Both the position numbers and the translations under genes were made by a program. A stretch of 64,000 nucleotides of DNA. Source: a virus. A model generated the notes under the pieces. That model was not told where the DNA came from. It searched no databases and saw nothing but the letters and a program-made list of their open reading frames with translations. Numbering within the stretch: the first letter of the stretch is position 1; the number at the start of each line of letters is the position of its first letter. Positions 1,254 to 52,728 of this stretch are shown piece after piece. Location: IMG/VR virus record IMGVR_UViG_3300027985_001729, positions 1-64,000 of that record. The stretch is one strand, 5' to 3'.

Positions 1254-2075
1254 CTACGTGTCTATCAAGTCTTTCATGCCGCTTCGCCCGGTATTGCGCA
1301 CTCGATCCACAAATGCTGCGCGTCTTTGCGGGTTGGCTATATCCACAACATCATCCACGAATTGGTACAAGTCGCGTTCGATCTGCTCTCTGGATGATGT
1401 TGTGCCGCCGACAAGCATGTAGGCAAGCAGTTTCACCTTTTCTGTTAGGCGCTGCTCCCTGATCACCATCTTGTATGCGCCAAGAGTCTTGGCAACCTCC
1501 TGAGTATCCGCTTGCCAACTATGTCTTGACGGAACGATTGGCTCCATCAGGAGCAACTTGCTCTCGCCTAAAACATAGTGAGATATTGGGCCGATCGTCC
1601 TTGCCGCAGAAAGAACGCCACCACCTTGCTGTTCAGGGTAGAACGTCTTTCTTACGTATTTGGCGATTCTGAAATTTTCAAAGAACCTATAGCCGTATGT
1701 GGCACGGTTCGGCCCGCGGTAATGTTTGGCCTCATCCTCTTCTGTTACTGTGTCTACGCGCAAACTTGACAGCAAAGAATTTATCCAGGCTGTTTCATTT
1801 GTTACCGCAACGGGCACCTGTTGAGGGTTTCCCAAAATTGCTTGTGGGCCCATACTTTTAGGCAGACTGTCGAAGTCATGCACTTGGGCAAGATCATCCA
1901 GAACCATCTGGACTGTCGCCGCCGCTGCCCGACCACCAAGACAGTGTGGGCCTGGAATATGCTGCATCCTCAAAACAGAAATACCTTCATCCGCCTGTAC
2001 GATGGCAGCGATCGGGATGCGCCCACCAAGGAACGGATCCGGCACAAAATGCACAAGCCTGAATCTTGCGCTCAT
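1254..2075 (-). CDS. DUF3037-family protein, partner of the HipA-like kinase
   Basis: A 273-aa protein whose N-terminus (FRLVHFVPDP, then a hydrophobic strand) matches the opening of DUF3037 proteins as I know them. In many bacteria a DUF3037 gene directly follows a small HipA-like kinase gene, and that is the arrangement here: the ATG at 2075 overlaps the kinase stop by 4 nt. Residues about 110-273 are helical and less conserved. The reading frame is intact. Base composition is visibly richer in A and T than the replication genes, suggesting separate acquisition. The biochemical role of DUF3037 is not known to me; a toxin-antitoxin or defence role is only inferred from the kinase partner. 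Confidence 0.65.
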   Translation of the reverse strand: MSARFRLVHFVPDPFLGGRIPIAAIVQADEGISVLRMQHIPGPHCLGGRAAAATVQMVLDDLAQVHDFDSLPKSMGPQAILGNPQQVPVAVTNETAWINSLLSSLRVDTVTEEDEAKHYRGPNRATYGYRFFENFRIAKYVRKTFYPEQQGGGVLSAARTIGPISHYVLGESKLLLMEPIVPSRHSWQADTQEVAKTLGAYKMVIREQRLTEKVKLLAYMLVGGTTSSREQIERDLYQFVDDVVDIANPQRRAAFVDRVRNTGRSGMKDLIDT

Positions 2076-2941
2076 GGCCGCCTCTCAATCAAATTGATGT
2101 AGTCCTTTACGATGCTAGGCGCGTTCATGCATCGAAACATGAGACCATTGGTGATAGATTGGACGTCAGGCTGATTCGCAATTCTGCACGCCTCTTGCGC
2201 GTATTCCGCAAGCGCACGCTTGTTAACGCGCAGCGCTTCGCTTGAACACGCCATTGCGGCATCACGAATCATGTCAACTGGAATGCCTTCGACCAAAGAG
2301 CGAATCGGCGGCGGCTCGATCCCGCGTTTTAATATCGCAGGCTCACCAATCCAGGACCATGAGAGATCGATAGAGAATATGCTCAGCCTGTCAGGCCCAT
2401 CCTCTGGCTTGAGTAGCAAGTTTGCGTCGTGTCGATCGAAATTCCCTATGATCGCGTCTATAGCAACGATTTTTCCTAGATCGTCAGGATTCACGAGGTA
2501 CTGTGCACGCGCTGGCGTCCAATGAACAACCGGCTCGATCACTTCACTCAGCCAAGACGTCGTACCATCCTTTACGTAAATAGCGCTATTCGGAGTGGGG
2601 ACTTCAAGAGCACCAGAAAGCAGCCACCCAAGCGCTTCCGCCAGTAATTCACGACGTTCGTGTGGAACCTTGCTGACCCATCGGCGCCCTTGCTCATCGA
2701 CGGTGTACTCGGCTCCCGTTGCGTTCTCGACGGGCACTGGACCGCTTACTGTAAGCGAATGGACGCTCTCGATCCTATTGGGGAGGAGTTGGGGGGCGAA
2801 CGGCGGCATGGCAGCCCAAGCGGGGACATCAGCAGACCGTCCCCAAGCAGGGCCATCGTATAGGACTATCCCTGGACTTGAACCAAATAAGTAGGCCCAA
2901 GACGTACCACCGCGACTTCTCGCCCTAAACCCGACCTCCAT
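2072..2941 (-). CDS. HipA-like (HipA_2-type) Ser/Thr kinase
   Basis: A 289-aa protein. The catalytic core is visible as NFDRHDANLLL (the N-x-D-R-H-x-x-N loop of HipA kinases) followed by FSIDLSWSW, the metal-binding aspartate region. Upstream, EALGWLLSGALEVPTP matches the helix-strand that precedes the nucleotide site in the short HipA_2 group. It lacks the N-terminal HipA domain, as is normal for this group. The ATG at 2941 has AAGGT a few nt before it. The frame stays open far upstream into the IS, but that is not coding. It overlaps the DUF3037 gene by 4 nt. HipA homologues phosphorylate translation factors; the substrate here is unknown. Confidence 0.72.
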   Translation of the reverse strand: MEVGFRARSRGGTSWAYLFGSSPGIVLYDGPAWGRSADVPAWAAMPPFAPQLLPNRIESVHSLTVSGPVPVENATGAEYTVDEQGRRWVSKVPHERRELLAEALGWLLSGALEVPTPNSAIYVKDGTTSWLSEVIEPVVHWTPARAQYLVNPDDLGKIVAIDAIIGNFDRHDANLLLKPEDGPDRLSIFSIDLSWSWIGEPAILKRGIEPPPIRSLVEGIPVDMIRDAAMACSSEALRVNKRALAEYAQEACRIANQPDVQSITNGLMFRCMNAPSIVKDYINLIERRP

Positions 2942-2957
2942 GTCTGACCTTGCGTTC

Positions 2958-2984
2958 AGTATACTTAGATACTGGCGCCGACAA
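2958..2984 (-). promoter_or_regulatory. Candidate promoter for the kinase-DUF3037 pair
   Basis: On the minus strand a TTGTCG (2979-2984) and TATACT (2958-2963) pair lies just before the kinase start. The spacer is only 15 nt, shorter than the sigma70 optimum, so this is a weak call. It would let the pair be transcribed independently of the upstream operon interrupted by the IS. Confidence 0.3.
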
Positions 2985-3445
2985 ATGCCTAGAATTGTCA
3001 CAGGTGGCCGCGAAAGTCGAGCAAAAGTTCTTGACTTTGTGATGTGTCCGTGCCCGAGACCCATCGACAGAGAGATCCTCAGTGGAGCGATCAATCCGTC
3101 GATGGATCGCTCGGTATCGCACCTTGACCAGCGCGTGCGCCGTGCCCTCTGCCAGCCCCCATACACCGCTCTCGATGCATTGACGGAGCGAGCATCCACG
3201 CATCGATCGACGCCTTTACGCACCCCTTCTGCGCGACGTAGCCCTATGACATCTGCTGTCCCACCTACCACGTTTGCCTTGTAAACAAGGCTTTTCTCGC
3301 ACTTCTGGTGTGGTAGTCTCAGGACATCAAACGAAAGCGCCCCGAAGAGACGGCAATCTCCCGGGGCGCGAGAACCGAGCGGCGGACCGCCCGACCCTGC
3401 AACCCGGAGCATGGTCCTGCCGCGCGAGAAAGGCAAGGGGCGACC
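2985..3445. other. Gene-poor stretch between the kinase and the IS1-like transposase
   Basis: No convincing gene in either direction. It contains an 8-bp inverted repeat (3085-3092 with 3105-3112), a short palindrome (GCCTTG...CAAGGC near 3270-3286) and a GC-rich hairpin (GCGCCCCG...CGGGGCGC, about 3338-3371). The left end of the IS1-like element should lie within this stretch, but I could not fix it. Confidence 0.45.
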
Positions 3446-4507
3446 ATGGCCAACGTGCTCCCGATGGGCACGCGCGTCCGCATCGTCGGCGCGCTGACGG
3501 AGGGCAACAGCATCCGGGCGACGGCGCGTCTGGAGAGCGTCGACAAGAACGCCGTGCTTCGGCTCGCCATCAAGGTAGGCGACGGATGCGAACGGCTCCA
3601 CAACCGCCTTGTGCGTGGCGTCGCGGCCTACGTCGTCCAGTGCGACGAGACGTGGAGTTTCATCTCCAAGAAAGCGGCGCGCTGCGAGCCCGGGAAAGAT
3701 CCCGAAGAGTGGGGAGACGCCTACACGTTCATCGGGCTGTGTTCGCGCTCCAAGCTCGTGATCTCCTACGTGGTCGGGAAGCGTGACGACGCGAGCACGA
3801 CTGCCTTCATCGATGACCTTCGCGCTCGGCTGTGCGTGGTGCCGCACCTCTCGACGGACGGCTTCGGCTGCTACGTGCCCGCCGTTGGCGCTTCCTTCGC
3901 GGGCAGCGGCGTCGATTACGGCCAGGTGGTCAAGCAGTACCGCACTGGCTCGCGCCGCGGTCCTGACCACCGTTACGAGCCTCCGCGTGATCCCTTCATC
4001 ACGAAGACGCCGGTGTTCGGTGTGCCCGACGAGAAGCTCATGAGCACGAGCCACGTGGAGCGCTTCAACCTCACCATGCGGCAGACGGTCGGCCGCACAC
4101 GTAGACTCTGCCTCGCCTTCTCCAAGACGCTGCGCGGGCACCGTGCGGGCGTGGCGCTGGGCATCGCGGCGTACAACTTCTGCCGCATCCACAGCACGAT
4201 CGGCATGACCCCAGCGATGGCCGCGGGGATCACCGACCACCCTTGGACCATCGGCGAGCTGGTCGAGGCTGCGTTGGCAGAGCTGGAAAGCGAGCCCGTG
4301 CCCGCTCCCGAGCCGCAACCGCTCCGCATGCCCGAAGAGCGAGCAACGCGCACCACCCGGGAGCTCCCCAACGGGCGCGGCTTCCTGCGCGTTGTCGAGG
4401 GTGGCCAGTCCTCCCCAAAGCCCTCCGCGCCTACTCATGCGCCCACCCCCTTGCGAGCTGCGCCTCGCCAGCTCTCCCTCTTCGATGGCCTCGACGATGA
4501 CTCTTGA
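3446..4507 (+). CDS. IS1-family DDE transposase with C-terminal clamp-binding-like motif
   Basis: A 353-aa protein starting at ATG 3446, with AAGGGG before it. An N-terminal HTH region (GNSIRATARL) is followed by an IS1-type catalytic domain. The DDE residues appear to be D67 (CDETW), D138 (STDGF) and E205 (SHVERFN); conserved IS1-like stretches YNFCRIHSTIGMTPAMAAG and TDHPWTIGELV are present. Most IS1-like proteins of this group stop soon after this point, near residue 280. Here about 75 extra residues follow, Pro-rich and ending with QLSLF (342-346), the consensus of the beta sliding-clamp binding motif. The frame is intact, so the element may be active. Its 3' end overlaps the convergent dndC frame. 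Confidence 0.85.
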   Translation: MANVLPMGTRVRIVGALTEGNSIRATARLESVDKNAVLRLAIKVGDGCERLHNRLVRGVAAYVVQCDETWSFISKKAARCEPGKDPEEWGDAYTFIGLCSRSKLVISYVVGKRDDASTTAFIDDLRARLCVVPHLSTDGFGCYVPAVGASFAGSGVDYGQVVKQYRTGSRRGPDHRYEPPRDPFITKTPVFGVPDEKLMSTSHVERFNLTMRQTVGRTRRLCLAFSKTLRGHRAGVALGIAAYNFCRIHSTIGMTPAMAAGITDHPWTIGELVEAALAELESEPVPAPEPQPLRMPEERATRTTRELPNGRGFLRVVEGGQSSPKPSAPTHAPTPLRAAPRQLSLFDGLDDDS

Positions 4508-5990
4508 CAGCAATCTCCACCCCTGCGCGCTGGTACGTAAACGCACGTCCGCGCCCGGGGTGTATGTTTTTGAAAATGAGGGTGTATGCTTTTCGCGAAA
4601 GGCATACACCACCCAGTCCCCTCGCTAGTTGGTATCGATGGTCGTCTCCTTCGCAGGCATTCTTGAGCTCGTCGAGATCGTTCCAAAGCTGAAGACGATA
4701 GTATGCGTCCTCCGTAGGATCGACGAACTTTTGGCCGGTTTCTTCTTCGTAGATCTTGGGTAGCAGGTCCTCGACCTCGCGCTTGTCGACCATCCAGATG
4801 CGTCGGATGGTCTCGAGCTCCTGTTGTGTGATGAGCTCGATGTCGCGCACATGGTCTGGACCATCTTTCCGAATCTCAGTCTGAGCTCGAAGAAGGAGGC
4901 GAAGCCACTCCGCTCGGGCGTGTTGCAGGTATGGTCCGGGGACGACCTTTGTGCCGTTTGCCATCAGGGTGACGTGGCCCTGCATCCGCCTGAAGTCACG
5001 AAGGTGACGGTCTCCGTTCTCGTTCTTGCGGAAGTCGAGGCGATTGCGCAGATCGAGCAGAGGCGCCATCCATTCGTGCTCGTCTTCGTTCTGGATCATG
5101 GCGGTCATCGACTTGTCCTCCTCGACGAGAGTGCAGACCCAGCACCCGAACCGGCTGTTGCCGCAGCTCGGGGTCGAGGTGTCGACGACGAGAGGGCACT
5201 CGTTGTCATCGCTTGCAGCGCGATACATCGCCCGGAGCATGTGGTTGTCCCAACCCCACGGGTTCTTGACCTGGCTCAAGAAGAGCCACACGTCGTCGCT
5301 CGTCCAGTCTTCGATGGGGCTGTAGACGAGCGCGTTGCCACCTAGCGCTGCGTTCGGCGACAGGCGCTCGCGGACGCGCTCCGCCTCGAGCTTCTCCATT
5401 CGCTTGCGCCTCACGACGCTCTCGGCCTTCCTTGTCCCGAGCACGAGGATCGACCCCCCAGACGTGTCGGTGGTCTCTGTGATGAACTTGTTCGACGGAT
5501 CGATCTTGAGGCGCTCCGTGCACCACCTGAACTTCTGACGTGGCGCCGCATACCCGCGCCCGATGAGGTTCACCCAGAAGGTGTTCGTTGGGTCAGGTGT
5601 GAGGCGATGTGGCTGGATCGGGAGGCCCTGTGCATCGGCCTGCTCGCGCATCCTCTCGAGGCTCTTCTCCGCCCATCTGGCGACGACAGGGTTCTCGACG
5701 AGCGTGTCCGTGCTGATGACGTGGATAGGCTTCGTTCGGCGATCGTGTGGCATCGATTGGATGGCCATCCAGACGAGCTGCAACGTCGCGCTCGAGTCCT
5801 TCCCGCCCGAGTACCCAACGATCCACGGCATGTCGTCGCTCGCGTAGAGAACCTGGATCTCCTCAAGAATCTCCTTGATGATCCATGGGTTGTCGGCGAT
5901 CGACAGACGCTTCGGTGCCTCCGGCTTCTTCGACACATGGTCCACGAACAACGGGAGCGACACGGGCTCTCGGCGACTCTTGGCGCTCAT
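4431..5990 (-). CDS. dndC: DndC-like DNA phosphorothioation sulfurtransferase, C-terminus replaced
   Basis: A 519-aa PAPS-reductase-superfamily protein. The ATP-binding PP-loop is SGGKDS (61-66). DndC-type stretches are clear: HVISTDTLVENP (90-101), NLIGRGYAAPRQKFRWCTERLK (split here as residues 141-162), SPIEDWTSDDVW and STPSCGNSRFGCWVC. Cys157, Cys276, Cys283 and Cys286 fit the four iron-sulfur ligands described for DndC, which activates sulfur with ATP for DNA backbone thiolation. The ATG at 5990 overlaps the upstream stop as TGATG. DndC homology ends near residue 460; the remainder (from GVCLSRKAYT) is IS-derived. No dndB, dndD or dndE is present in the window, so it is an orphan or acts with host proteins. 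Confidence 0.85.
   Translation of the reverse strand: MSAKSRREPVSLPLFVDHVSKKPEAPKRLSIADNPWIIKEILEEIQVLYASDDMPWIVGYSGGKDSSATLQLVWMAIQSMPHDRRTKPIHVISTDTLVENPVVARWAEKSLERMREQADAQGLPIQPHRLTPDPTNTFWVNLIGRGYAAPRQKFRWCTERLKIDPSNKFITETTDTSGGSILVLGTRKAESVVRRKRMEKLEAERVRERLSPNAALGGNALVYSPIEDWTSDDVWLFLSQVKNPWGWDNHMLRAMYRAASDDNECPLVVDTSTPSCGNSRFGCWVCTLVEEDKSMTAMIQNEDEHEWMAPLLDLRNRLDFRKNENGDRHLRDFRRMQGHVTLMANGTKVVPGPYLQHARAEWLRLLLRAQTEIRKDGPDHVRDIELITQQELETIRRIWMVDKREVEDLLPKIYEEETGQKFVDPTEDAYYRLQLWNDLDELKNACEGDDHRYQLARGLGGVCLSRKAYTLIFKNIHPGRGRAFTYQRAGVEIAVKSHRRGHRRGRAGEAQLARGWAHE
4581..4610. repeat. 30-bp near-perfect palindrome at the IS right end
   Basis: GGTGTATGC (4581-4589) faces GCATACACC (4602-4610) around a centre TTTTCGCGAAAG; the whole 30 bp is self-complementary except for one G-T pair. 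A third copy of GGTGTATG in direct orientation begins at about 4559. It may be a terminal or subterminal transposase-binding structure, or a separate recombination target. It falls exactly where DndC homology ends. Confidence 0.7.
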
Positions 5991-6199
5991 CACAACACCC
6001 CGTCGATGACCATCTGCCGGTCCTGGAAGTTTTTAGCGCGGCAAGTAATCTTGTTGAGCTTGTGGATCATGTGCCCACGCTCCTCCATCGCATACTCGAC
6101 ACAGTTCGCGCAGTTTTTGTGGCCCCGCGGGCGCCCTGGACCTGGCCGGTTATGGCCTGGCAAAGGAGGTCTCCTGCGAGCTCCGTCGCGGAGCTTCAT
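5990..6199 (-). CDS. Small Cys-containing protein upstream of dndC
   Basis: A 69-aa basic protein. The C-terminal half (NCANCVEYAMEERGHMIH, later a third Cys) looks conserved-protein-like and has a CxxC that could bind metal; the N-terminal 25 residues are Pro/Arg/Gly-rich and overlap the decayed DUF3037-like gene, so the true start may be further in. Its TGA overlaps the dndC ATG as TGATG, which argues for co-translation with dndC. No family recognised. Confidence 0.45.
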   Translation of the reverse strand: MKLRDGARRRPPLPGHNRPGPGRPRGHKNCANCVEYAMEERGHMIHKLNKITCRAKNFQDRQMVIDGVL

Positions 6200-6563: not shown

Positions 6564-7038
6564 GGGACTTCCTCGCCTTTTTGTGTGGCCCAATCAAATC
6601 TGCGGCGTTACGAACAATCTGTTGCGCGCACTCTCTGCGACATTTTAGAAAATCTACGAATTTATGCTTATGCGGGTTCAGTTCATCTGGCCACCCGGAT
6701 GCAGCCGTATCAATTTCGCCATCCGAGACTTTCTCAAGGCGGGCAGCGATCTCTTCCCAGTTCGAGATTTCTGCATTGCGTGACAACGCATTATACATGA
6801 TATGGTGGCGAAAGCTCGCGGCCGCATTGATTACAGTCTGTTGCGCTAGATCAGAACCGCTAACTCCACGTCGATCAATCCCAACGAAGGCCGATCCATG
6901 GTCAAGCGCAACAAGGTGATCGTGAAACCAAACCGCATTGGGATTTTCGGTTCGACGGTCGTCGTGCCTAATGTATGCATCCAGCGCAAACAGTGCGACT
7001 CCCCACTTTTGTGTGGCCGCCTTGCCTTGAACCCCTTT
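6550..7038 (-). pseudogene. HipA-like kinase remnant, C-terminal part only
   Basis: A 162-codon open stretch directly after an in-frame stop (7039-7041). It reads WGVALFALDAYIRHDDRR, then ENPN and LVALDHGSAF: this is the HipA catalytic loop (x-D-R-x-x-x-N) and the second metal-binding Asp. The C-terminal helices (WEEIAARLEKVSD and LKCRRECAQQIV) also fit the short HipA group. The N-terminal nucleotide-binding part is missing or frameshifted. The frame of the truncated DpdA-like gene runs over the same bases (6846-7038). With the DUF3037-like remnant it forms a second, broken copy of the kinase-DUF3037 module. Confidence 0.55.
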
Positions 7039-7955
7039 TCAAGTGTAGATGCCAGCGATGCAACAGGACGGTAAGCCATCGAAGTATGGGTAACCCAGTT
7101 GGTCACAAGTGCAAGCATGGAGAAAAATGCCGCAAAGGCATCCCGCCAATGAAGGCAGGTTGTTTCTTGTGTAGTAGCATGCGCTGGGTGGTCTTCATAG
7201 GCGACGCCGGGGACCATTGAGCAAGCGGTCAAACCACAATCAATGACTGCGGTCATTTGGAGTCGACTGCGGTAATTACCGCACCACCCAACTCTGGCCC
7301 ATCCTTGAAGGACGGGGATCCAGTTGATGTCTGGGGCGAGCCGACGCAACGCGACGAAATTCTCGATGGTGCGCCGCTGGTGCTCGGCGACCGACATGCC
7401 TGTCCCATGGAATATGACCTCTGCGCCGTCGCCGAACCGCTCCGCCTCGCGCACGCTCGCGGCGAGAACTGGACCCGCCTCACGAGCCCACGCGAGCCAT
7501 CTTTGCAGGTCGATACGAGGCGGGCGTTTGCGGGGGCTTCGGCATATCCGGCATAGCCCTGCTCGGTCCAGCTTGCCCTTGCACGCTGCATGCGGGCACG
7601 ACGCCTGCTTGACGAGTCCGTGGATGACCTGCGGCTCGCACATCCAATCCTGTGGCGCGGCCCAGAGCATGCGCCCGATGGCGTGCTTGTATCGGCGGAC
7701 CTCCTCGATGTAATCGGCGACATCGACGGTCCACCGACCGTAGAGTTGAAGCTCTGTGAACCCGCCCGAGTCGAGCGCCCATGGCACTACCGCCACGGGC
7801 AGGCTCTTCATTGTGTGCAGCGTGCGCCTCGAGATGAACAGAGGAACGGTCGCATCGCGTAGCCACCCTGGCTTGTGTGTTCCAAGGAAGAAGCGATCAC
7901 CCCAGCATGATGTCGGGTTGACCTGTGCTCCGGCAATGTCGACCGTTTCTCTCAT
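6846..7955 (-). pseudogene. dpdA-like: DpdA/TGT-like DNA deazaguanine transglycosylase, truncated
   Basis: Residues 1 to about 229 look like the DpdA-related TGT-like family of phages and bacteria: FFLGTHKPGWL, ALDSGGFTELQLYGRW with the catalytic-type Asp, WAAPQDWMCEP and GMSVAEHQRRTIENF, then WIPVLQGW. Homology stops after QGW at about 7290; the rest of the 369-aa frame looks unrelated and overlaps a HipA-like remnant, so the C-terminal third of the enzyme is gone. Between MCEP and the next conserved block there is an extra segment of roughly 60 residues with four cysteines (CPHAAC...CRIC), a possible zinc knuckle. DpdA-type enzymes insert 7-deazaguanine precursors into DNA. As it stands the gene is probably inactive. 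ATG 7955 overlaps the upstream remnant stop as TGATG. Confidence 0.6.
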
Positions 7956-8105: not shown

Positions 8106-9074
8106 TCAACCCATGTCATGGGGCGATGCGTAACTCGTCACGACAAGTTCTCGGCGTGTGCCACGTGACTCAGCTTTGCGCGAGATGGTCGTTGGGGCAT
8201 CGATTTCGTGGATGGTCCACCGCCCGAAGAGGGCTCGGACGCGGTCTGTGTCGCCGTTGCTCATGACCCATGGGACGCCTCTACGGTCGAGCTCGAGGCA
8301 CACATCCTTGAGCCGTTCGATGTCTGGTCGTTGCACCTCGCGATCGAATAGTCCGACCTGCTCACTACCACCACGGAACCCACCCGCTTGATAGCCGGAC
8401 CATGTGCCGTCGTATGGAGGGTCGAGGTACACGAAGTCGCCTTTTTTGGCTAGCATGGCAGCCTGCTCGAAGTCGAGATGTCGGACCTCGGCAAGCTCCA
8501 GTGCCTTCGAGCAGGACCTGAGAAGGGCTGCGTCGCAGATGTTCGGGGCCTTGGTCCACTTCCCCCAGCTCGCATTGAACCGTCCTCGCGAGTCGACGCG
8601 ATGCAACCCGTTGAAGCAGAGCTTGTGCAGGAAGATGAACGATGCCCCCACCTTGACGATTGGCGCGTCCTTTCGATCGTTGTACGAAGCCCGCACCTCG
8701 TAGTACATATCCTCGGCCGCACGAGGATCTCCGGCGATGAGCATGACCATCTTCGAGCTCATCTCACCGAGTGTGCCAATGAGATCGTCGACATGATCTC
8801 GGACCGATAGGTAGGAGGCGATGAGGCCATGGTCGGTGTCGGAGAGAGCGACACGCAGCCCGCGCGGTAGCGCCCATCTATAGGTGATCGCTCCTGCGCC
8901 AGCGAATGGCTCCATGTAGGTGCCAGCGATGGCATCCGATGGGAAGTGCTTGATGAGCTCTTCGCCGAGCTTCCACTTCCCACCCGGCCATTTGATGAAC
9001 GGCCGGGCGACGGAGACGAACCCGACTTCGCCATCCGCGTCCTCGATAGTCGCTTCCGTCGCCTCGGTCGTCAT
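8106..9074 (-). CDS. Dam-family (D12 class) N6-adenine DNA methyltransferase
   Basis: A 322-aa protein with the ordered motifs of the D12 class: KWPGGK (28-33, near the SAM site), EPFAGAGA (55-62, motif I-like) and DPPYDGT (218-224, catalytic motif IV). NGLHR and FNASWGKW between them also fit Dam homologues. It transfers a methyl group from SAM to adenine N6, most often in GATC, though specificity cannot be read off. The ATG at 9074 has AAGG before it and lies two bases after the stop of the 682-aa gene, so it is the second gene of the leftward operon. No partner endonuclease is present, pointing to self-protection or regulation. Confidence 0.92.
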   Translation of the reverse strand: MTTEATEATIEDADGEVGFVSVARPFIKWPGGKWKLGEELIKHFPSDAIAGTYMEPFAGAGAITYRWALPRGLRVALSDTDHGLIASYLSVRDHVDDLIGTLGEMSSKMVMLIAGDPRAAEDMYYEVRASYNDRKDAPIVKVGASFIFLHKLCFNGLHRVDSRGRFNASWGKWTKAPNICDAALLRSCSKALELAEVRHLDFEQAAMLAKKGDFVYLDPPYDGTWSGYQAGGFRGGSEQVGLFDREVQRPDIERLKDVCLELDRRGVPWVMSNGDTDRVRALFGRWTIHEIDAPTTISRKAESRGTRRELVVTSYASPHDMG

Positions 9075-11125: not shown

Positions 11126-11208
11126 AAGTCTCCCTCGCCCGCCCACGCGGATGCCACCAAGGCGCCGACCAAGACGGGAAATCGTCGTGAGCCTATGCAC
11201 GGCGCATG

Positions 11209-11258
11209 GCAGGTGTCAAGTGACTCGAGATATTAGACTCGGGACAGTTGACACCTGC
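11209..11258. promoter_or_regulatory. Symmetric operator-like site in the divergent promoter region
   Basis: Arms GCAGGTGTCAA (11209-11219) and TTGACACCTGC (11248-11258) are a perfect 11-bp inverted repeat 28 bp apart. Each arm contains TTGACA pointing outwards, i.e. a consensus -35 towards 11125 (minus) and towards 11284 (plus). Between the arms, GACTCGAGA (11222) and GACTCGGGA (11236) form a 14-bp-spaced direct repeat. No good -10 is seen at 17 bp on either side, so the TTGACA may be only part of a binding site. It is the obvious target for the XRE-type protein encoded 25 bp downstream. Confidence 0.65.
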
Positions 11259-11283
11259 GTGGAAGACGTCGCAAGCTGGAGCT

Positions 11284-11595
11284 ATGGGTAAGACCAGAAC
11301 AATTGCCGCTCCGAATGCGTCCGCCATCGTCGCTCTCCGCAAGGCACTCGGACTGTCACAGCAACAGGTCGCAAACCGTGGAGGGATCACCCGGGACGTC
11401 GTGACGACGAACGAGCGCGGGGCACGCAAGCTGACGAGCTTCCCTGCTCGCGTCGGGCTGGCCAAGGGGCTCGGCATCACCCTCGACGAATTCAACGAGC
11501 TGGTCGACGGGCAGGTGGAGGTGGAGGTCCTCGCGGACCGTGTACGAACTCGCGAGCCAGCAAACCAGGAATCCGACGTCCAGTCCGTTCGCTGA
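11284..11595 (+). CDS. XRE-family HTH repressor
   Basis: A 103-aa protein. ATG 11284 follows GGAG (11277-11280); an in-frame TTG at 11248 was rejected because it lies inside the operator. Residues 12-70 form a Cro/CI-type HTH (IVALRKALGLSQQQVANRGGITRDVVTTNERG). The C-terminus is acidic and short, without a peptidase or dimerisation domain, so any repressor cleavage mechanism is absent. It sits between the divergent operator and the replication genes and probably controls both early operons (inference). Confidence 0.82.
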   Translation: MGKTRTIAAPNASAIVALRKALGLSQQQVANRGGITRDVVTTNERGARKLTSFPARVGLAKGLGITLDEFNELVDGQVEVEVLADRVRTREPANQESDVQSVR

Positions 11596-11644: not shown

Positions 11645-12517
11645 TTGCCCAAAGCGTTCGACAAGCTGGTCGCATTTGTCGCCCTGTTCGAGGGACGGAT
11701 ACGGATAGAAGCGGCACGAGGGGCCAAGGTGGGCACGCAGCGCGCTGTGCTGGGAGCGTTGATCGCTCGGGCCAACGAAACAGGAGAGGTGCCGCCTGGG
11801 CTCGCACCGCGAACACAGGACATGGTTGCCATGCTCGGGGTGAGCGACAGGAGCGCAAGGGCTGCCATCGCCGCGCTCAGGTCGCAGGGGCTAATCGCCA
11901 CCGTAGACCGACCTGGCAAGCCGCGAGGGTTCAACCTCTTGCTCACGTTCGACCGTGAGACCCCCTGCAAAAATGATAGCCCTGGCGAATTTGCAGGGGG
12001 TCTCACGGATGGATTGGACGAGACACCCCCTGCAAAAATGATAGCCCTTGCAAAAACGCCAGTGGTCAACGGAGTAACCACCTGCAAAAGCGCAACCCCT
12101 GGCGAATTTGCAGGGGGTGCAAAAGCGCAACCCCTGGCGAATTTGCAGGGGGTATCCGAAGACGGTGCTTCGGAAGCAAAGAGGAGGTCGGTCGCGAGGA
12201 CAGTGCTCAGCCCATCGAACGCCGTCGGGTGGGAGATCTGGGAGATCCTCGTTGGGTCCTCGACGATCCGAGCTGCCGAGGACGCAGACCAGAAGCCGAA
12301 GCCTGGGTCATTGGCGCGGATGGCGAAGGGGATCGCGGACAGGATCGCGCGCGGCGACACGAGCCTTGAGACAGCCAAACGGGCGATCGACGCGATCTCC
12401 TCGGAGGTCGGCGCTGAATCTCCGAAACTTCCGACGATGGAAGAGCTTTCCCAGCTTTTTTCACGACATTTGAGAACGATCCGGCGCGGAAACGGGATCG
12501 GTCAGGAGCAGCCATGA
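11645..12517 (+). CDS. Winged-helix replication initiator (lambda O-like layout)
   Basis: A 290-aa protein. I place the start at TTG 11645 because a GAGGAGGAG ribosome site ends 3 nt before it and the upstream frame is read within the repressor gene. Residues about 45-105 form a winged HTH (TQDMVAMLGVSDRSARAAIAALRSQGLI). Residues about 105-170 are repetitive because the DNA beneath them is a cluster of iteron-like repeats. The C-terminal 100 residues are helical and charged and may contact the helicase. The next genes include a second initiator-like protein and DnaB. As in lambdoid O genes, the origin seems to lie within the initiator gene, and this protein would bind it. Confidence 0.7.
   Translation: MPKAFDKLVAFVALFEGRIRIEAARGAKVGTQRAVLGALIARANETGEVPPGLAPRTQDMVAMLGVSDRSARAAIAALRSQGLIATVDRPGKPRGFNLLLTFDRETPCKNDSPGEFAGGLTDGLDETPPAKMIALAKTPVVNGVTTCKSATPGEFAGGAKAQPLANLQGVSEDGASEAKRRSVARTVLSPSNAVGWEIWEILVGSSTIRAAEDADQKPKPGSLARMAKGIADRIARGDTSLETAKRAIDAISSEVGAESPKLPTMEELSQLFSRHLRTIRRGNGIGQEQP
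11953..12152. other. Putative phage replication origin: iterons inside the initiator gene
   Basis: The 11-mer CCCCCTGCAAA occurs five times without mismatch in 200 bp: forward at 11961 and 12026, reversed at 11990, 12107 and 12142, with a degenerate copy at about 12079. The first pair forms a perfect 19-bp inverted repeat (11953-11971 with 11990-12008) around an 18-nt centre. The last two belong to a perfect 35-bp tandem duplication (12083-12117 and 12118-12152). Short A/T runs lie between the sites. The density of repeats in coding DNA of an initiator gene is the hallmark of iteron origins. Confidence 0.72.
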
Positions 12518-12681
12518 TGGACACGATCGTCAGCGGGTGGACGTGGCGAGCGGACACGCTCGCCGCGGATGGTGAGGTAGGCTTGTTGCAGATCGCCATC
12601 TTGATCCACGAGAACAGGGGCGAGCTCAACGCTGCCGCCGGTCTCGTATCTGCGCTCATCGCGGCAAGGAGGGGGTCGTGA
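12514..12681 (+). CDS. Short protein between the two initiator-like genes
   Basis: A 55-aa protein starting with ATGATG at 12514, overlapping the previous stop (12515-12517), and ending with a TGA that overlaps the next GTG start. Sequence begins MMDTIVSGWTWRADTLAA and continues as an amphipathic helix. The tight coupling at both ends is the main evidence. Function unknown; a small helicase-loading or regulatory factor would fit the position but nothing in the sequence shows it. Confidence 0.5.
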   Translation: MMDTIVSGWTWRADTLAADGEVGLLQIAILIHENRGELNAAAGLVSALIAARRGS

Positions 12682-14171
12682 AGGGGGGCGAGGTGTACAG
12701 CAGAGTGAGCAGGCGCATGTGGTGCGACGAGCGCTTCTGCGGCCTCTCGAGGCCAGAGCCGAGCGCGCGAGAGCTATGGCTCTACCTGCTCACAGGGCCT
12801 CGGTGCAGCCAGATCCCAGGTCTTGTGCATGTGGGGGTCCTTGGCCTCGCCGACGACCTCGACTGGCCCGTCGACGAGACGCGCAGATGCCTCGATGAAA
12901 TCGTGGGCGCTGGCATGGCCCACGTCGACCATAAGGCGCGCCTGATCTGGCTCCCCAAGGCCGTGCGCCACAACTGGCCAGCCAACAGTTCGATCGTGCT
13001 CGGATGGGCTAAATCGTGGCGCATGTTACCAGAGTGCGCCCTTCGCGAAGATGCGGCAGCAGGGATCGAAAGCCTTTTCGCCGAGGTGAACCAGACCATG
13101 GCCGAGGCCTTCCGCGTGGCTCTAGGGCGGGCTCCGTTCGACCGATCCAAGGTCCCCGTGGGGCGAAGGAAGGGGAAGGGCGAGCAAGAACACCATGGAG
13201 AACACCGTGTTCAAGACGGTGTTCAACACCGTGTCGAACACCGTGTCGAACACCGTGGGGGGGGTGGTGTGCCACATCAAGAACAAGAACAAGAACAAGA
13301 ACAGGAACAAGACCAAGAACAAACAGCGCGCGCGGGCGCGTGTGTTGGGCTTGGTGCGGGAGAGCACCAACGAGAACCAGAAGACATCGTGGCTCTCGTT
13401 CGCGAGTTGTCCGCGAAAGAAGCTGGTTCACCTGACAGCTTCGCGAAGCGCTGCGAAGACCGCCTGGCCAGCGGCAGGAAGCTATCCCCAGCGCAGCGAG
13501 AGCGCCTCCTGAAGATCCTCGACGATCGTCGCAGGCAAGACGTTCCAAAGGCCGAAGCAGACCCCATCGTAGCCAGGGCCTTGGAGCTCTACGGAAAGCT
13601 CAGGGACAGGCGCGTGAAGGGGGAGAAATACGTCTGGACGAGCTCGGATGCTGCGCACGTCGCGAAGCTTGTTACCGAGGCGAAAGGGATCGCCTCTCGC
13701 GAAGAAAGCTCGCCAGCCCCCGAGGACATCGTGGAGCGAGCGATCAGGTCCTACCTCGAAGACCAGGATCAGAAGCTCCGAGATGAACGGTGGCCGCTTG
13801 CCTGGTTGCCATCCAGGATGACCAGATACCCACTGCTAAAAGCCAGAAGAGCTCCAAAGGCGGCAGCAGAGCCACTTCCTACACCTCCCCCGTCGGCTCC
13901 ACGACGCATGCCACCGCGCAACGTGATCGGAATGTTTGGCTCCATCGGGAGGGGTGGCAGCCAAGGACCAAGGCAAGATGGCCCATCGGGGCCATACCGA
14001 TCCGCCGAAGAAGAGACAAGAGCGAGGTGGTCCGCCAGCGCCGAACAGGCGAGGGCGCTCGGGATTGACGCTGGACCAGAACCTGATGACCTCGAGGAAA
14101 TGCAGGCGAGGCTACCTGGCCTCCAAAAATCATGCTTGCTCGCCATGGAGAGCAGGAGCGCGACAGCGTGA
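12678..14171 (+). CDS. Phage replication protein with winged-helix N-terminus and repeat linker
   Basis: A 497-aa protein with a GTG start overlapping the previous stop as GTGA. The first 125 residues resemble the N-terminal domain of phage replication-initiator-like proteins (RMWCDERFCGLSRP, LWLYLLTGP, GLVHVGVLGLADDLDW, HVDHKARLIWLPKAVRHN). A low-complexity linker follows, rich in His/Arg/Val/Glu and then alternating Gln-Glu (about residues 174-215), encoded by tandem 12-bp and 6-bp repeats. The C-terminal half is helical, charged and Pro-rich. It immediately precedes dnaB and may load the helicase (inference from position). Confidence 0.7.
   Translation: MKGGEVYSRVSRRMWCDERFCGLSRPEPSARELWLYLLTGPRCSQIPGLVHVGVLGLADDLDWPVDETRRCLDEIVGAGMAHVDHKARLIWLPKAVRHNWPANSSIVLGWAKSWRMLPECALREDAAAGIESLFAEVNQTMAEAFRVALGRAPFDRSKVPVGRRKGKGEQEHHGEHRVQDGVQHRVEHRVEHRGGGGVPHQEQEQEQEQEQDQEQTARAGACVGLGAGEHQREPEDIVALVRELSAKEAGSPDSFAKRCEDRLASGRKLSPAQRERLLKILDDRRRQDVPKAEADPIVARALELYGKLRDRRVKGEKYVWTSSDAAHVAKLVTEAKGIASREESSPAPEDIVERAIRSYLEDQDQKLRDERWPLAWLPSRMTRYPLLKARRAPKAAAEPLPTPPPSAPRRMPPRNVIGMFGSIGRGGSQGPRQDGPSGPYRSAEEETRARWSASAEQARALGIDAGPEPDDLEEMQARLPGLQKSCLLAMESRSATA
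13201..13323. repeat. Tandem 12-bp and 6-bp repeats inside the replication gene
   Basis: Five imperfect copies of a 12-bp unit (AACACCGTGTTC-like) run from 13201 to 13260, followed after a short G-rich stretch by about seven AACAAG-like hexamers ending near 13323. All units are multiples of 3 so the frame is kept. Palindromic halves such as GGTGTTCAACACC are present. It may be simple slippage DNA in a linker, or an auxiliary binding cluster. Confidence 0.65.
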
Positions 14172-16900
14172 GCCGCAACAGCCACCAAACAAGAGCGCCG
14201 AGGAAGCAAGATCCGCCTCCTGTCGCGGGCCGGGTGCCGCCGCATGACCTGGACGCCGAGGCCGCGGTCCTCTCCGCGATCCTCCTGAGCCGCGACGCGT
14301 TGGATCGCGTGCTCGAGATCCTCAAGCCCGAGCATTTCTACAGCGACGCGAACGGTCGCATCTACGAGGCGGCCGTGCAGCTATCGAGCACCAGTACGCC
14401 GATCGATATCGTCTCGGTGGCGTCGTGGCTGCGCGATCGGGAGAAGCTCCAGCAGATCGGCGGCTCGAGCTATCTCGCGCAGCTCGCCGACGCGACACCG
14501 GCAGTGGCGCACGTTGGCGCGCATGCGCAGGTGGTCTTCGAGAAGTGGCGCTTGCGTCAGCTCATCGCGACCTGCCAGCGGATCGCGGCCGAGGGCTACG
14601 GCGACGTGGGCACGGTGCAGGAGTTCGTCGATCGCGCAGAGCAGGACGTTTACCAACTTGCCCACCGTGACAACAAGAGCAACGTCGTCCATGTGAAGGC
14701 AGCCATCCAGGGAGCGTTCGCGAAGATCAGCGCCGCTGCCGAACGCGGGGATCGGATCACTGGGATCTCTACGGGCTACGATCGATTCGACGCAAAGACC
14801 GCTGGCTTGCACCCGGGCGACCTCACTGTTGTCGCCGCTCGCCCTGGTATGGGAAAGACCTCGTTCGTGCTCAACATGGCGGTGAACGTGGCCACCCCAC
14901 CGCTCATGGACAATGGGCACGGTGAGACGGTCTTCGACTTGTCGAAGACCTATCACGGCGTCGTGGTCTTCTCTCTCGAGATGCCGCGCGAGCAGCTTGG
15001 TATGCGGATGTCGTGCGCGGAAGGCCGCGTCGACGTAGGCAAGGTGCGGCAGGGACAACTCCAGCCAGACGAATGGGACCGCATCACCGAGGCAGCTTCG
15101 TACCTCTCGAACTTGCCGATCTGGGTCGATGACACGCCGGCGATCACCTTGCTCGAGGTGAGAGCGAAGGTTCGGCGCATCCAAGCAGAATTCGATCGTC
15201 CAGCGACGGAAACGACCCCAGAGCAGAAGATCGGGCTGGTTGTCATCGACTACATCCAGCTCATGAAGGGGCCGGATGGGATCTCGAACAGGGAGCAGGA
15301 GATCAGCGCGATATCTCGAGGCCTGAAGCAGCTATCGAAAGAACTAGGCGTTCACGTCATTGGTCTGAGCCAGCTCAACCGGGCCGTTGAAACTCGGAGC
15401 ACAAAGGACAAGAGGCCTCAGCTATCGGACCTGCGGGAGTGCGTCGCGAGCTCGGAGTGGACCGCCGACCCACGCACAGGGGCGATACTATCGATGGCGG
15501 AGCTCGCGCATACGCGTTCCCCACGAGTTTATGGTCTCAACGGACAGATGCGATCCGTCGGCGCGACGGTGGCCGATGTTTGGTCGACCGGGAGCAAGGA
15601 CGTGCTCCGCGTTCGGACACGAACGGGCAGATCCCTGCGCTGCACGCACAACCACCCGCTGCTCACGGTGCAAGGGTGGCGCGCGGCTGGTGAGCTCAAG
15701 CTGGGCGATCACGTGGCGCTTGTGCGCTCGGTTCCCGAGCCAACCAGCCCTCGCAACCAGTACACGGACGACGAACTGAGACTTCTCGGATATCTCGTTT
15801 GCGACGGCTCGTACTCGAAGTGGCGGTCGGTGTCCTACGTGAAGGGCGACCCCGAGCTCGTGAGCGATATTTCCACGATCGTTGACCAGCGGTTTGAAAT
15901 CCCCGTGAAGCCGAAGCCGTGCAAGGGGAAAGCGAAGCAGGTCGAGTTTAGGATGGATCGATCTGGCCCCAACGCGAACGCGCTCATCGAATGGCTGAAA
16001 GAGATCGGCATCCATGGGCAAAAGACCGAGACGAAGGCTCTGCCGTGGAATGTCTTCGAGAGCGACAACAGAACGCTCGGGGTTCTGCTCGGGGCCACGT
16101 GGGCAGGCGATGGGACCGTGGTCGCGAGAAAGAGCGGGCGAGGTGGTCGGTTGAAGTTCACCAGCGTAAGCACGTCCCTGATCGACCAGGTATCCTGGAT
16201 GTTGTCGAGGCTCGGGATCGTGTGGTCGAAGAAGGGACCCTTTCGGAACACAAGGTCGAAGAAGGACCTGTACGAGCTCATTGTCGATGGGCGCGCCGAC
16301 GTGGCCAGATTCGCCAAGTTCGTACCTGTGCCAGGATCGAAAGGCAGAAAGCTCAAAAAGATCGTTGAGAGCAGGGGCAGGAAGGACAACACACAGCTCG
16401 GCAGGTTGCCGGTCGAAGTGACGAACGAGCTCGGAAGACGCGCGAAGGAATGTGGCGTTTCGTGGTCACAACTTGGCTACAGGTGCCAGGGCAAAGCGAT
16501 CGCTCCTGCTGACCTGCGGAGGTGCGCCGTGGCTCTCGACGCTGAAGAGCTTGCCAAGCTCGCGAGCGATAGCATCCTCTGGGATCCGGTCGTGAGCATC
16601 CAGCCCGACGGCGCGGAGGAGTGCTTCGACGCGCGTGTCCCCGCGACAGGATCGTTCATGGCGAGCGGCTTCTTCGTCCACAACAGCGGGGCGATCGAGC
16701 AGGATGCTGACATGATCGTCTTCATCTATCGCGACGAGTACTACAACCCCGAGACGACGAACGCGAAGGGGATCGCGGAGCTCATCATCGCCAAGCAGCG
16801 TAACGGTCCGACGGGCAAGGTCCTGACGCGCTTCACCTCGTCATGTACGCGTTTCGACAACCTGGCGCATGGCGATTATCCAGAGGAAGAAAGCGAATGA
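14168..16900 (+). CDS. dnaB: Replicative DNA helicase DnaB interrupted by an intein
   Basis: A 910-aa precursor. The GTG at 14168 overlaps the previous TGA (GTGA, as in neighbours) with AGGAG upstream; an ATG at 14132 is also possible. Residues 15-130 are the DnaB N-terminal domain (PHDLDAEAAVLSAILL). The RecA-like motor has Walker A ARPGMGKTS near residue 230 and Walker B LVVIDYIQLM. At residue 425 the helicase sequence SDLRE is cut by an intein (425-839) and resumes with SGAIEQDAD. Without the intein the protein is 495 aa, normal for DnaB. It unwinds DNA at the phage fork and is presumably loaded by the preceding initiator-like proteins. Confidence 0.95.
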   Translation: MSRNSHQTRAPRKQDPPPVAGRVPPHDLDAEAAVLSAILLSRDALDRVLEILKPEHFYSDANGRIYEAAVQLSSTSTPIDIVSVASWLRDREKLQQIGGSSYLAQLADATPAVAHVGAHAQVVFEKWRLRQLIATCQRIAAEGYGDVGTVQEFVDRAEQDVYQLAHRDNKSNVVHVKAAIQGAFAKISAAAERGDRITGISTGYDRFDAKTAGLHPGDLTVVAARPGMGKTSFVLNMAVNVATPPLMDNGHGETVFDLSKTYHGVVVFSLEMPREQLGMRMSCAEGRVDVGKVRQGQLQPDEWDRITEAASYLSNLPIWVDDTPAITLLEVRAKVRRIQAEFDRPATETTPEQKIGLVVIDYIQLMKGPDGISNREQEISAISRGLKQLSKELGVHVIGLSQLNRAVETRSTKDKRPQLSDLRECVASSEWTADPRTGAILSMAELAHTRSPRVYGLNGQMRSVGATVADVWSTGSKDVLRVRTRTGRSLRCTHNHPLLTVQGWRAAGELKLGDHVALVRSVPEPTSPRNQYTDDELRLLGYLVCDGSYSKWRSVSYVKGDPELVSDISTIVDQRFEIPVKPKPCKGKAKQVEFRMDRSGPNANALIEWLKEIGIHGQKTETKALPWNVFESDNRTLGVLLGATWAGDGTVVARKSGRGGRLKFTSVSTSLIDQVSWMLSRLGIVWSKKGPFRNTRSKKDLYELIVDGRADVARFAKFVPVPGSKGRKLKKIVESRGRKDNTQLGRLPVEVTNELGRRAKECGVSWSQLGYRCQGKAIAPADLRRCAVALDAEELAKLASDSILWDPVVSIQPDGAEECFDARVPATGSFMASGFFVHNSGAIEQDADMIVFIYRDEYYNPETTNAKGIAELIIAKQRNGPTGKVLTRFTSSCTRFDNLAHGDYPEEESE
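15440..16684 (+). other. DnaB intein, 415 aa, with LAGLIDADG-type endonuclease region
   Basis: Begins with Cys (CVASSEW) and ends with FFVHN before a Ser, so splice-site residues are Cys1, His-Asn and Ser+1. The block B motif is CTHNHPLLT. The two endonuclease motifs are LLGYLVCDGSY and LLGATWAGDGTV, which resemble the paired LAGLIDADG helices; acidic residues are present in both. The insertion point, inside SDLRE/SG of the helicase, is a known DnaB intein site. All splicing residues are intact, so splicing is expected. Confidence 0.93.
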
Positions 16901-35188: not shown

Positions 35189-35509
35189 TCAGTTGAACGG
35201 GCAGGGTGGGTCGGGTACCGCTGGGATCGTTGGAAGGTCAGGAACGGGAGGGAACGGGAGGGCGTAGCCGAGGGCGATCGAAGGGACGCCTGGGAGCCCT
35301 GGCGGTGTTGGGACACCCGGCAGTGATGGCAGGTCTGGAGCGCCAGGGATGGGTGGCGATGGGATCGCGTAGCCAAGAGCCACAGACGGTGGGCCCGGGA
35401 GCCCTGGAGGCGTTGGCACCCCAGGCACTGGAGGGAGGCCTGGAAGCCCAGGAATGGGCGGTCCAGGCAGCGCGTAGCCAAGCGGGACAGAGGGATACGC
35501 GCACGGCAT
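35189..35509 (-). CDS. Pro/Gly-rich triple-repeat protein in the baseplate operon
   Basis: A 106-aa protein made of three tandem units of about 34 residues, each containing GYALP or GYAIP, a Pro-rich stretch and PGVPTPPGLPG or a variant. Pro makes up roughly 40% of residues; there are two Cys, one near each end. ATG 35509 overlaps the spike stop (ATG/TGA), so it is co-translated. It occupies the slot between the spike and gp46 genes where a spike-tip protein would be expected. No known family. Confidence 0.65.
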   Translation of the reverse strand: MPCAYPSVPLGYALPGPPIPGLPGLPPVPGVPTPPGLPGPPSVALGYAIPSPPIPGAPDLPSLPGVPTPPGLPGVPSIALGYALPFPPVPDLPTIPAVPDPPCPFN

Positions 35510-42398: not shown

Positions 42399-43913
42399 TC
42401 AGCCGACCTGCCGGACGCTCACGCCGGTCTGGTGATTGAGTGGGGTTGCGATGGCGGGGACCAAAGACATGATCCGCTTTGCGACGGGGTCGTACTCGGA
42501 CACGGGCGGGTTCAGTTCGACGTCGCTGAGGATGTTCTGCGACTCGAGGTCCTTGAGGATGGACGTGACCGTCTGGTTCCACCGAGTTGGCGTTGCAACC
42601 CCGGGCGGACGTTCGCGCTGCTCCGGCGCAGGGTCATCGGCCACGTAGGGGTTGGCCACCTTGTACACGGTGACCCAGTAGAGCTCGAGCACATCGCGCA
42701 CATAGTCAGGGACGACAGCCTGTGCCGTGTCGAGCGTGCGGTAGTCTGGGAGCGCACCGTTCAGGCAGTGCGTGACGATCGACCGGACGATGTATGCTTC
42801 CCCCGACGGTGAAGTGGCGATGGGGGTAACGCCGTTGTCGAGCGCGCTGATGAGGGTCGCGGTTGTCGGCCAGTCCCCCGATTGACTCTGCGCCACAATG
42901 CCTGGCAGCACGTACCCGTCATACCCTTGGTTCGGGTTGGACTGCTCAGCAGCGGTCCTTGCGGCGGCAAAAACTGCCGCGATCTCTGAAGGGTGGTTCT
43001 CGGAATTGAGATACCAGAGGAGTTGAACGCGCTCAGCGTTGAGCGTCACCGTCGACAGGGTAATCGAAGCAGACAGCGAGTCGCTGACGGCACAGATGGC
43101 GTGCTCCGTCTTGCCCTCGAGCACTCCGGCCTTGGTGTTGAGCTGAGCCTCCCACAGCGCCGCGTTGGCGGCATCGTTCTGGGCGAAGGCGATGCGGTTG
43201 TACCGCTGAGCGGATAGCACAGCGAGCAGCGCCGAGACGTCCTCCGTGCCGGTGCCGCCGGTGAAGTGGACTCCGCCTCCCGTGATGGCCGTGCCACCAG
43301 CGATCGCGCTCGTGACGCCGCCGGCTGGGGTGTCGCTCTCCTGGAAGAGCACGCCTTGGTTGCCGCGAGCTCCAGCGCTCTTGCGCGTCGCAGTAACGAT
43401 ATAGGTGGGCCCAGCGCCGACGGCGGCCGTGACCGGGGAGTGTGGGTCGGCGTTGATGGATGCAGCGATCGCCGTGGCGATGCTCGAGAGCGTATCCGTC
43501 GTGCGGATGACGCCTGTGTAGCGCCTACCATCGATGCGATAGGCGAACTCGCCGGAGCTCGTCGGGTTGGACCCAAACAGCGTGATCGTGATGGTGACGG
43601 TGGCTGCTACCGCGCCTACGGCCTCCGCGCTCGGAGCGGCAAGGAGCTTGACCCCGGGGATCCTCAGCGCTGCCTGGCACATGAGGTTGATCTCGGACCC
43701 GGCCCCGTGCAGCGTGTCGCTGTCGTCGAGGCTCAGGATCTGGTCGATGCTCGCGTTTGGCGTGGCGGTCCCTGTGCTCTCGAGCATTGTGCCGCTCACG
43801 AGACACACGAGGGGGATGGACCCGATCGTGATGGGGCCAGCACCGTATACTGTTTCCCCGAAGAACGCGGGGAGCTTGTTGGTGGACGTGAAGCCGACGA
43901 TGTTGATGCTCAT
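42399..43913 (-). CDS. Tail sheath protein
   Basis: A 504-aa protein; ATG 43913 overlaps the preceding stop (43910-43912). The N-terminus (MSINIVGFTSTNKLPAFFGE) and Gly/Thr/Ala-rich body match Mu gpL-like sheath subunits; the C-terminal third (EAYIVRSIVTHCLNGALPDYRTLDTAQAVVPDYVRDVL, residues about 400-440) is the conserved sheath domain that inter-weaves with neighbours. Confirms a contractile (myovirus) tail. Confidence 0.88.
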   Translation of the reverse strand: MSINIVGFTSTNKLPAFFGETVYGAGPITIGSIPLVCLVSGTMLESTGTATPNASIDQILSLDDSDTLHGAGSEINLMCQAALRIPGVKLLAAPSAEAVGAVAATVTITITLFGSNPTSSGEFAYRIDGRRYTGVIRTTDTLSSIATAIAASINADPHSPVTAAVGAGPTYIVTATRKSAGARGNQGVLFQESDTPAGGVTSAIAGGTAITGGGVHFTGGTGTEDVSALLAVLSAQRYNRIAFAQNDAANAALWEAQLNTKAGVLEGKTEHAICAVSDSLSASITLSTVTLNAERVQLLWYLNSENHPSEIAAVFAAARTAAEQSNPNQGYDGYVLPGIVAQSQSGDWPTTATLISALDNGVTPIATSPSGEAYIVRSIVTHCLNGALPDYRTLDTAQAVVPDYVRDVLELYWVTVYKVANPYVADDPAPEQRERPPGVATPTRWNQTVTSILKDLESQNILSDVELNPPVSEYDPVAKRIMSLVPAIATPLNHQTGVSVRQVG

Positions 43914-44374
43914 GCCTGCTCCGAGGACGAGAGGGGTGGATTGGTCGTGGCGGGCTGGCGAAGATCCGCCTGCCACAGAGAGAAGTCTGGGTCTCGACCA
44001 TGCTGGTCTTTGAAAGCCTTCATGGCTCGACTGCGATAGTCGTTGATCGCCTCGGGCCATGGCCGGAACGGGACGCCAACCGCTTGAGCGGTGGTCCTAT
44101 CTGCCGGGATGATGTCTCCGTGCAGAATCCCATGCCTGTAGTGGTTGGTGTCCTCCACGGCGCGCGGGGAGAGGTCGAACTTGAAGAACGTGCGTTGCCG
44201 AGGGGCATGCATGGCCTTGCTCGCTCTCGTGATCCTGGTCCTCGATGGGTCGATGATTGCGCCGACCCAAAGCCGATATCCGCGGCTCAGGTTGGGGTCA
44301 TCGGGGAATGCACTCGCGGGAACTCCCTCGTGGTCGAGAGTCTTGAAGGGGTTGCAGACTACGTTGAGCAGCAC
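43910..44374 (-). CDS. Hypothetical protein next to the sheath gene
   Basis: A 154-aa protein, charged, with HYRHGILHGDIIPADRT and FPDDPNLSRGYRLWVG segments. Sits directly upstream of the sheath, where Mu has small unknown genes (gp38 position). Its stop overlaps the sheath start. No family recognised; possibly a tail completion protein. Confidence 0.55.
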   Translation of the reverse strand: MLLNVVCNPFKTLDHEGVPASAFPDDPNLSRGYRLWVGAIIDPSRTRITRASKAMHAPRQRTFFKFDLSPRAVEDTNHYRHGILHGDIIPADRTTAQAVGVPFRPWPEAINDYRSRAMKAFKDQHGRDPDFSLWQADLRQPATTNPPLSSSEQA

Positions 44375-52349: not shown

Positions 52350-52359
52350 GGTGTCCTGC

Positions 52360-52728
52360 TCAGGGGATGTTGTGGCCAATGGCGATCGCTACCGCCCGAA
52401 CGACGGAGAGGAAGAGCGCATCTTTTGCGCGCTGCTCAGGAGGCAGCGATCGGTACGGGACCATGCACGGGTGGGTCTTCGCGGCGATGTCCTTGACCGC
52501 CCCATATGCCCACCCAGTGCGTTCTTTTTCAGCCAGCCACTCGGCGTGGCTCTGCTCTGGCGTGTTCCCAGCCAGAGCACCAGCGACACCCTTCCGCGCG
52601 CTCTCCTTCTGCCAGTCGGGGGCGTCGTCCCATGCCGGCTGCGAAGTGTCCCCGATCGCCAAGCAGTAGGCGCGGTTCGCCTCGTGCGCCGCTCGAGCGC
52701 AGGTCTCAATGACGGCCTGCGGCGTCAT
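52360..52728 (-). CDS. RyR-domain protein
   Basis: A 122-aa protein; ATG 52728 overlaps the preceding stop as ATGA. Nearly the whole length matches the RyR repeat domain as found in phages: ARAAHEANRAYCLAIGDTSQPAWDDAPDWQKES, EWLAEKERTGWAYGAVKD, THPCMVPYRSLPPEQRAKDALF (given as separate blocks). The domain is common in phage genomes near structural genes, with unknown biochemical function. Placed between the decoration-like and protease genes. Confidence 0.82.
   Translation of the reverse strand: MTPQAVIETCARAAHEANRAYCLAIGDTSQPAWDDAPDWQKESARKGVAGALAGNTPEQSHAEWLAEKERTGWAYGAVKDIAAKTHPCMVPYRSLPPEQRAKDALFLSVVRAVAIAIGHNIP

Follow-up and report, generated by a model that had tools for sequence, protein, structure and literature searches.

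In phage lambda the origin lies in the middle of the O gene and consists of iterons, each an inverted repeat, with an adjacent AT-rich tract (PMC7466680), and for Salmonella phage L the part of the published description that concerns gene 18 gives six 11-bp repeats as the authors' likely origin (PMC8022706). Bacillus phage SPP1 has one origin, oriL, in gene 38 and a second, oriR, elsewhere, with gp39 as the loader and gp40 as a DnaB-type helicase (PMC6316719). At chromosomal origins, one strand bears the DnaA-trios, 'a.k.a. NAN' (PMC13220808), and the DnaD recognition element, TnnT, is found on the opposite strand (PMC10201434).

The window analysed here, the first 64,000 nucleotides of IMG/VR virus record IMGVR_UViG_3300027985_001729, contains a rightward early operon headed by an HTH_3/HTH_31 phage regulator of the Cro/CI-like kind (11248-11595, +; Pfam HTH_31 9e-7, HTH_3 3e-6). 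Downstream of this lie gene A (11645-12517, +), gene B (12678-14171, +) and a dnaB replicative helicase gene interrupted by a LAGLIDADG intein (14132-16900, +; TIGR00665 1e-150, with intein splicing and LAGLIDADG_3 domains). A preliminary description of this DNA had placed the phage origin in a set of repeats within gene A (array A) and had noted that another initiator-like gene and then dnaB lie after it; this gene order was correct, but an array within the second gene had been overlooked. The best-supported origin most likely lies there, at 13188-13323 in gene B and about 1.1 kb downstream of array A.

Compared with lambda, the present phage is alike in having a mid-gene candidate origin at an early-operon position, but it encodes its own DnaB, its array A has no adjacent tract, its gene B iterons are 12 bp long and the lambda O Pfam models were matched by neither gene A nor gene B. 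Gene 18 of phage L and gene B appear to be of the same kind, with iterons inside the initiator gene and a DnaB-type helicase gene (gene 12 in phage L) in the same region, whereas the iteron sequence differs; the published passages on the phage L locus describe no NAN tract and, unlike the situation in the present phage, no extra upstream gene carrying a second array. The likeness to SPP1 is one of layout and not of shown sequence relation, and comprises an initiator gene in which direct repeats and an unwinding element are embedded, helicase genes after it, and a second origin; the second array is found in the adjacent gene here and the second origin approximately 13 kb away in SPP1. As at bacterial oriC with its DnaA-trio/DRE elements, a run of NAN triplets, read as TnnT on the opposite strand, stands beside initiator-type sites in gene B, whose product is itself DnaD-like, but the gene B tract differs in having no nearby DnaA boxes and in lying within phage coding sequence.

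Repeats within gene A

Gene A is a 290-aa ORF with a TTG start after GAGGAGG. The repeats reported previously were all recovered exactly, namely five perfect copies of CCCCCTGCAAA (11961+, 11990-, 12026+, 12107- and 12142-), a perfect 19-bp inverted repeat with an 18-nt loop spanning 11953-12008 (arms 11953-11971 and 11990-12008) and, at 12083-12153 (+), a tandem duplication of a 35-bp unit without mismatch (100% match). The window would be expected to contain CCCCCTGCAAA 0.03 times and contained it five times, a count reached in 0 of 100 shuffles, and no further copies were found in the rest of the 75,303-base record. When the full record was scanned on either strand for 10-mers recurring at least four times within 300 bp, array A was the only place found. 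The 11-mer was found to be a portion of a larger site of approximately 22 bp, with consensus CCCTGGCGAATTTGCAGGGGGT, and seven such sites in mixed orientation make up array A (11953-12153, assigned to neither strand). Three of these are perfect (11980-12001, 12097-12118 and 12132-12153, all +) and four are degenerate inverted copies (11960-, 12025-, 12043- and 12077-); no close CCCTGGCGAATTTGCAGGGGGT-like sites were found beyond the cluster. Each site is roughly palindromic, as 12 of the inner 19 bases of the consensus agree with the reverse complement.

The five 11-mers occur on both strands and in three codon frames, where they encode the peptides TPCKN, FAGGL, PPAKM, FAGGA and NLQGV, and GC3 in the repeat part of gene A is 0.50, compared with 0.73 and 0.74 in its flanks and about 0.78-0.79 in control genes. 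The use of both strands and three frames, with the drop in GC3, indicates that the copies are DNA-level sites. Judged from its sequence, array A is a cis-acting DNA element housed in a protein linker, as had been supposed.

An AF2 model of the gene A protein, which is of low confidence (mean pLDDT 44), gave a winged-helix-like N-domain (residues ~29-98), a disordered linker encoded by the repeats (~100-192) and a helical C-domain (193-282), which bears out the earlier placing of the repeats in the linker of a DNA-binding protein. The claim that this protein is a winged-helix protein held in part, with weak sequence matches to HTH_36 (E=4e-4) and GntR (E=5e-4), both below the Pfam cut-offs, and with the low-confidence model in agreement; a fold search with the model, given its low pLDDT, was uninformative. 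Matches to PHROG families were weak (E=0.003-0.04) and several were to replication initiators (phrog_391, which is O-like, E=0.006; 270; 4617), and array A is within the coding region of a DNA-binding protein whose label as an initiator comes from these weak matches. The phrog_391 match was the sole sign of lambda O homology in gene A. No gene A homologues were found in viral contigs (queried with the whole protein, the N-domain and the C-domain), in bacterial genomes, phages and plasmids, in the whole records of ten relatives or in the ORFs of two fetched locus sets. Among the parts of this protein, the winged-helix domain is the one most likely to bind array A, and the array is best read as a binding array of gene A's own protein, serving as a control site or an auxiliary origin.

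The flanks of array A were of average stability, with no adjacent low-stability or NAN tract, and its middle was mildly unstable (12007-12056, z=1.9).

Iterons and an unwinding-type tract within gene B

Gene B encodes a 497-aa initiator or DnaD-like protein and is the probable site of an in-gene origin. Its match to phrog_1701 (5e-13) is to the PHROG 'DnaD-like helicase loader' family, and it is homologous to a protein of Citrobacter phage Chris1 annotated as 'DNA replication protein O'. The conserved N-domain of gene B was modelled confidently by AF2 (pLDDT 86.5); a fold search with it gave no match at E<=0.001, and several of the best-ranked entries were winged-helix regulators. Directly after this domain is array B (13188-13259, +), composed of six 12-bp iterons GAACACCGTGTY, which read in order GAACACCATGGA, GAACACCGTGTT, CAAGACGGTGTT, CAACACCGTGTC, GAACACCGTGTC and GAACACCGTGGG. 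The array is followed by ATCAAGAACAAGAACAAG... at 13276-13323 (+), an unwinding-type tract (ATCAAGAACAAGAAC...) of 16 consecutive NAN triplets that reads as TnnT on the opposite strand.

The 12-bp periodicity of array B was greater than that of all 300 synonymous-codon shuffles, and GC3 falls to 0.38. The tract is the longest run in the window with A at every third base (16 triplets, with a maximum of 7 elsewhere) and the least stable 50-mer of the region from 11.0 to 14.5 kb (z=3.3). Gene B was found to have both tandem iterons inside an initiator gene and an unwinding tract adjacent to them. Of the features of the chromosomal trio/DRE system, the NAN run was present and DnaA boxes beside the tract were not, with no TTWTNCACA found within one mismatch at 12466-16014. 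As such boxes do not flank the tract, a role for DnaA here would be unlikely or unproven. Use of the tract sequence as a literature query turned up nothing relevant.

GC skew was considered as an arbiter of origin position and rejected. The cumulative GC-skew minimum, at 11,170, falls at the intergenic point between the divergent operons and does not distinguish one array from the other; skew at fourfold sites was noisy and gave no clean switch.

Conservation of the gene B module among viral contigs

A DNA-only motif query with ATCARGAACARGAACARGAACARG against 2.9 million viral contigs returned 112 stretches, 80 of them listed; among those listed, 77 were in ORFs of the gene B family, 2 were cut at contig ends and 1 was a chance match. 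Among the matches listed there were 63 non-redundant loci, in which the motif was in the QEQE frame in 58, where Q/E-rich linkers give NAN codons automatically, and in the GTGT frame in 5. The iteron period at these 63 loci was 12 bp in 49, a periodicity which in many relatives exceeded the synonymous null just modestly, and 11 bp in the other 14. Because NAN codons are automatic in the QEQE frame, discrimination comes only from the members read in the GTGT frame, from the arrays of 11-bp period and from a second array copy found in one relative (locus L007, below). As a period of 11 bp is impossible for a peptide repeat, its occurrence together with the change of frame indicates that the DNA is kept and not the peptide.

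Relatives across the family (L006-L086) carry an array of 11- to 12-bp units at the same place, after the conserved N-domain, and many also carry the CARGAA tract. An alignment of the N-domain was made over 25 diverse members, all 25 of which matched phrog_1701. The iterons vary widely among phages (AATCATTCCCCC, GGAACGTTACGG, AAGCCTTCCG..., ACACCGTG) and the tract is constant, so that the layout is conserved while the iterons diverge at the 63 non-redundant listed loci, over two periods and two frames. Both the window and L006 have ACACCGTG as the iteron core, together with the CARGAA tract, but not in the same reading frame. In enterobacterial relatives (e.g. L009 and L010), which have a short, degenerate array, other sequence replaces the CARGAA tract. 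The preliminary description had expected repeats that shift among relatives while the flanking domains are conserved; this pattern was seen in the gene B family, while for gene A no relatives were found.

In L007 (571-930) a second copy of iterons and ATCAGGAACAG (GGGCATCAGGAACAG) was found at about 749-930, outside gene B and beside a (CTTTCT)n run, with the in-gene copy 5.6 kb farther downstream; this second copy is a likely second origin. In relatives such as L011, L014, L031, L047 and L048 a DnaB-like gene comes directly or almost directly after gene B and there is no gene A; the DnaB identity was confirmed by Pfam for L014. No array resembling array A was seen within 4 kb upstream at the 80 listed motif loci, and no relative of gene A was found among them.

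Discussion

We consider it rather probable that the main origin of this phage is in gene B and that array A is an array for gene A's own protein, and probably not the main origin. Gene B is favoured by its iterons with the conserved tract, by the relatives that have no gene A and by the absence of such a tract beside array A. The earlier proposal of an in-gene origin of the lambda O type, located in the replication module, with repeats in a linker and conservation at the level of the DNA, has in these respects stood; its identification of array A as that origin has not, as neither a low-stability nor a NAN tract adjoins array A and it is the iterons and tract of gene B that recur, at the 63 listed loci.

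In the mechanism we propose, the gene B protein would bind the 12-bp iterons at 13188-13259 and strain the DNA, the neighbouring NAN tract at 13276-13323 would melt, and DnaB from the phage's next gene would be loaded at the opened tract. The gene A protein would act at array A, inside the early transcript and a short way before gene B and dnaB, where it could form a self-limiting switch on early transcription and thus on replication, or could mark an auxiliary origin site.

Array A might instead be itself an origin bound by the gene A protein, either the main one, with gene B as just a helicase loader, or a second and separate one as in SPP1, a reading that we regard as possible but doubtful. 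The architecture of the array and its position in a linker are consistent with it, as are the O-like layout of gene A (a DNA-binding N-domain, a repeat-bearing linker and a helical C-domain), the weak O-like PHROG matches and the mildly unstable stretch at 12007-12056. SPP1 gives a precedent for two origins with oriL within gene 38 (PMC6316719), and L007 is one phage with two origin-like arrays. Against these stand the missing NAN or low-stability tract, a layout whose recurrence was found in no relatives, a gene B array that is intact and family-wide, and the relatives that manage with gene B and dnaB alone. A more elaborate arrangement, in which two in-gene origins lie side by side in the phage and each is recognised by the product of the gene that contains it (for example for quiet maintenance and for lytic growth), and in which the fixed ATCARGAACARGAAC tract of the gene B family is a phage counterpart of the NAN/TnnT code for unwinding at bacterial oriC, constant while the iterons diversify, seems to us clearly unlikely.

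It is also quite improbable that array A is a functionless inserted palindromic element, or a recent local duplication, tolerated in the disordered linker. A recent event is suggested by the exact tandem duplication of 35 bp and by 42-bp units that are nearly identical, and no relatives of gene A were found that could show conservation, but the mixed orientation, the three frames and the inclusion of degenerate sites suggest maintained sites over a single duplication. Nor does the hairpin CCCCCTGCAAA...TTTGCAGGGGG form a mobile palindrome or repeat family, as elsewhere it occurs as scattered single stretches (9 viral and 46 bacterial). That the repeats act as an RNA hairpin of the early transcript, in attenuation or translational control, is the reading to which we give hardly any credence: the predicted RNA fold over them is strong (-104.9 kcal/mol, z=-8 versus dinucleotide shuffles), but such a fold follows trivially from any inverted DNA repeats, the stem is within an apparently translated ORF and a T-run terminator was not evident in the sequence.

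The prediction thereby passes over the most conspicuous repeats and places the origin in the following gene, at an array which is less perfect but has evolutionary support. By the signature of 11-12-bp iterons with ATCARGAACARGAAC after them, the likely origin can be located in dozens of phages whose initiators belong to the DnaD-like family, and if the NAN tract works like the chromosomal trio/DRE code, a small phage system could be used to test a shared strand-opening rule. The extra array of gene A poses the question of whether it is a replication control site or a second origin.

Other features of the phage genome

The record begins and ends with the same 80 bases (1-80 and 75224-75303), which makes it probable that the phage genome is complete and has a circular map of approximately 75.2 kb. 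When the portal protein was used to look for close relatives of the phage as a whole, one distant fragment was obtained, and for most other phage proteins tested matches were absent or only distant. The Mu-like portal (42399-44060, -) and contractile tail sheath (53369-55108, -) occur together with a theta-type replication module.

On the reverse strand, a DpdA-like gene (6846-7955, -), of the kind linked to deazapurine in DNA, adjoins a gene for a Dam-type N6-adenine methyltransferase (8106-9074, -), and this pair suggests that the phage DNA may be modified. An 846-aa protein with a weak PI3/PI4-kinase-like match (2072-4612, -) is encoded near the DpdA-like gene and beside a PAPS-reductase-like protein (4431-5993, -). 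A single ORF of 1272 aa (48561-52379, -) combines inorganic-pyrophosphatase-like and Mu-like protease domains, and about two tandem copies of a 105-bp unit are found in the structural-gene region at 35288-35482.
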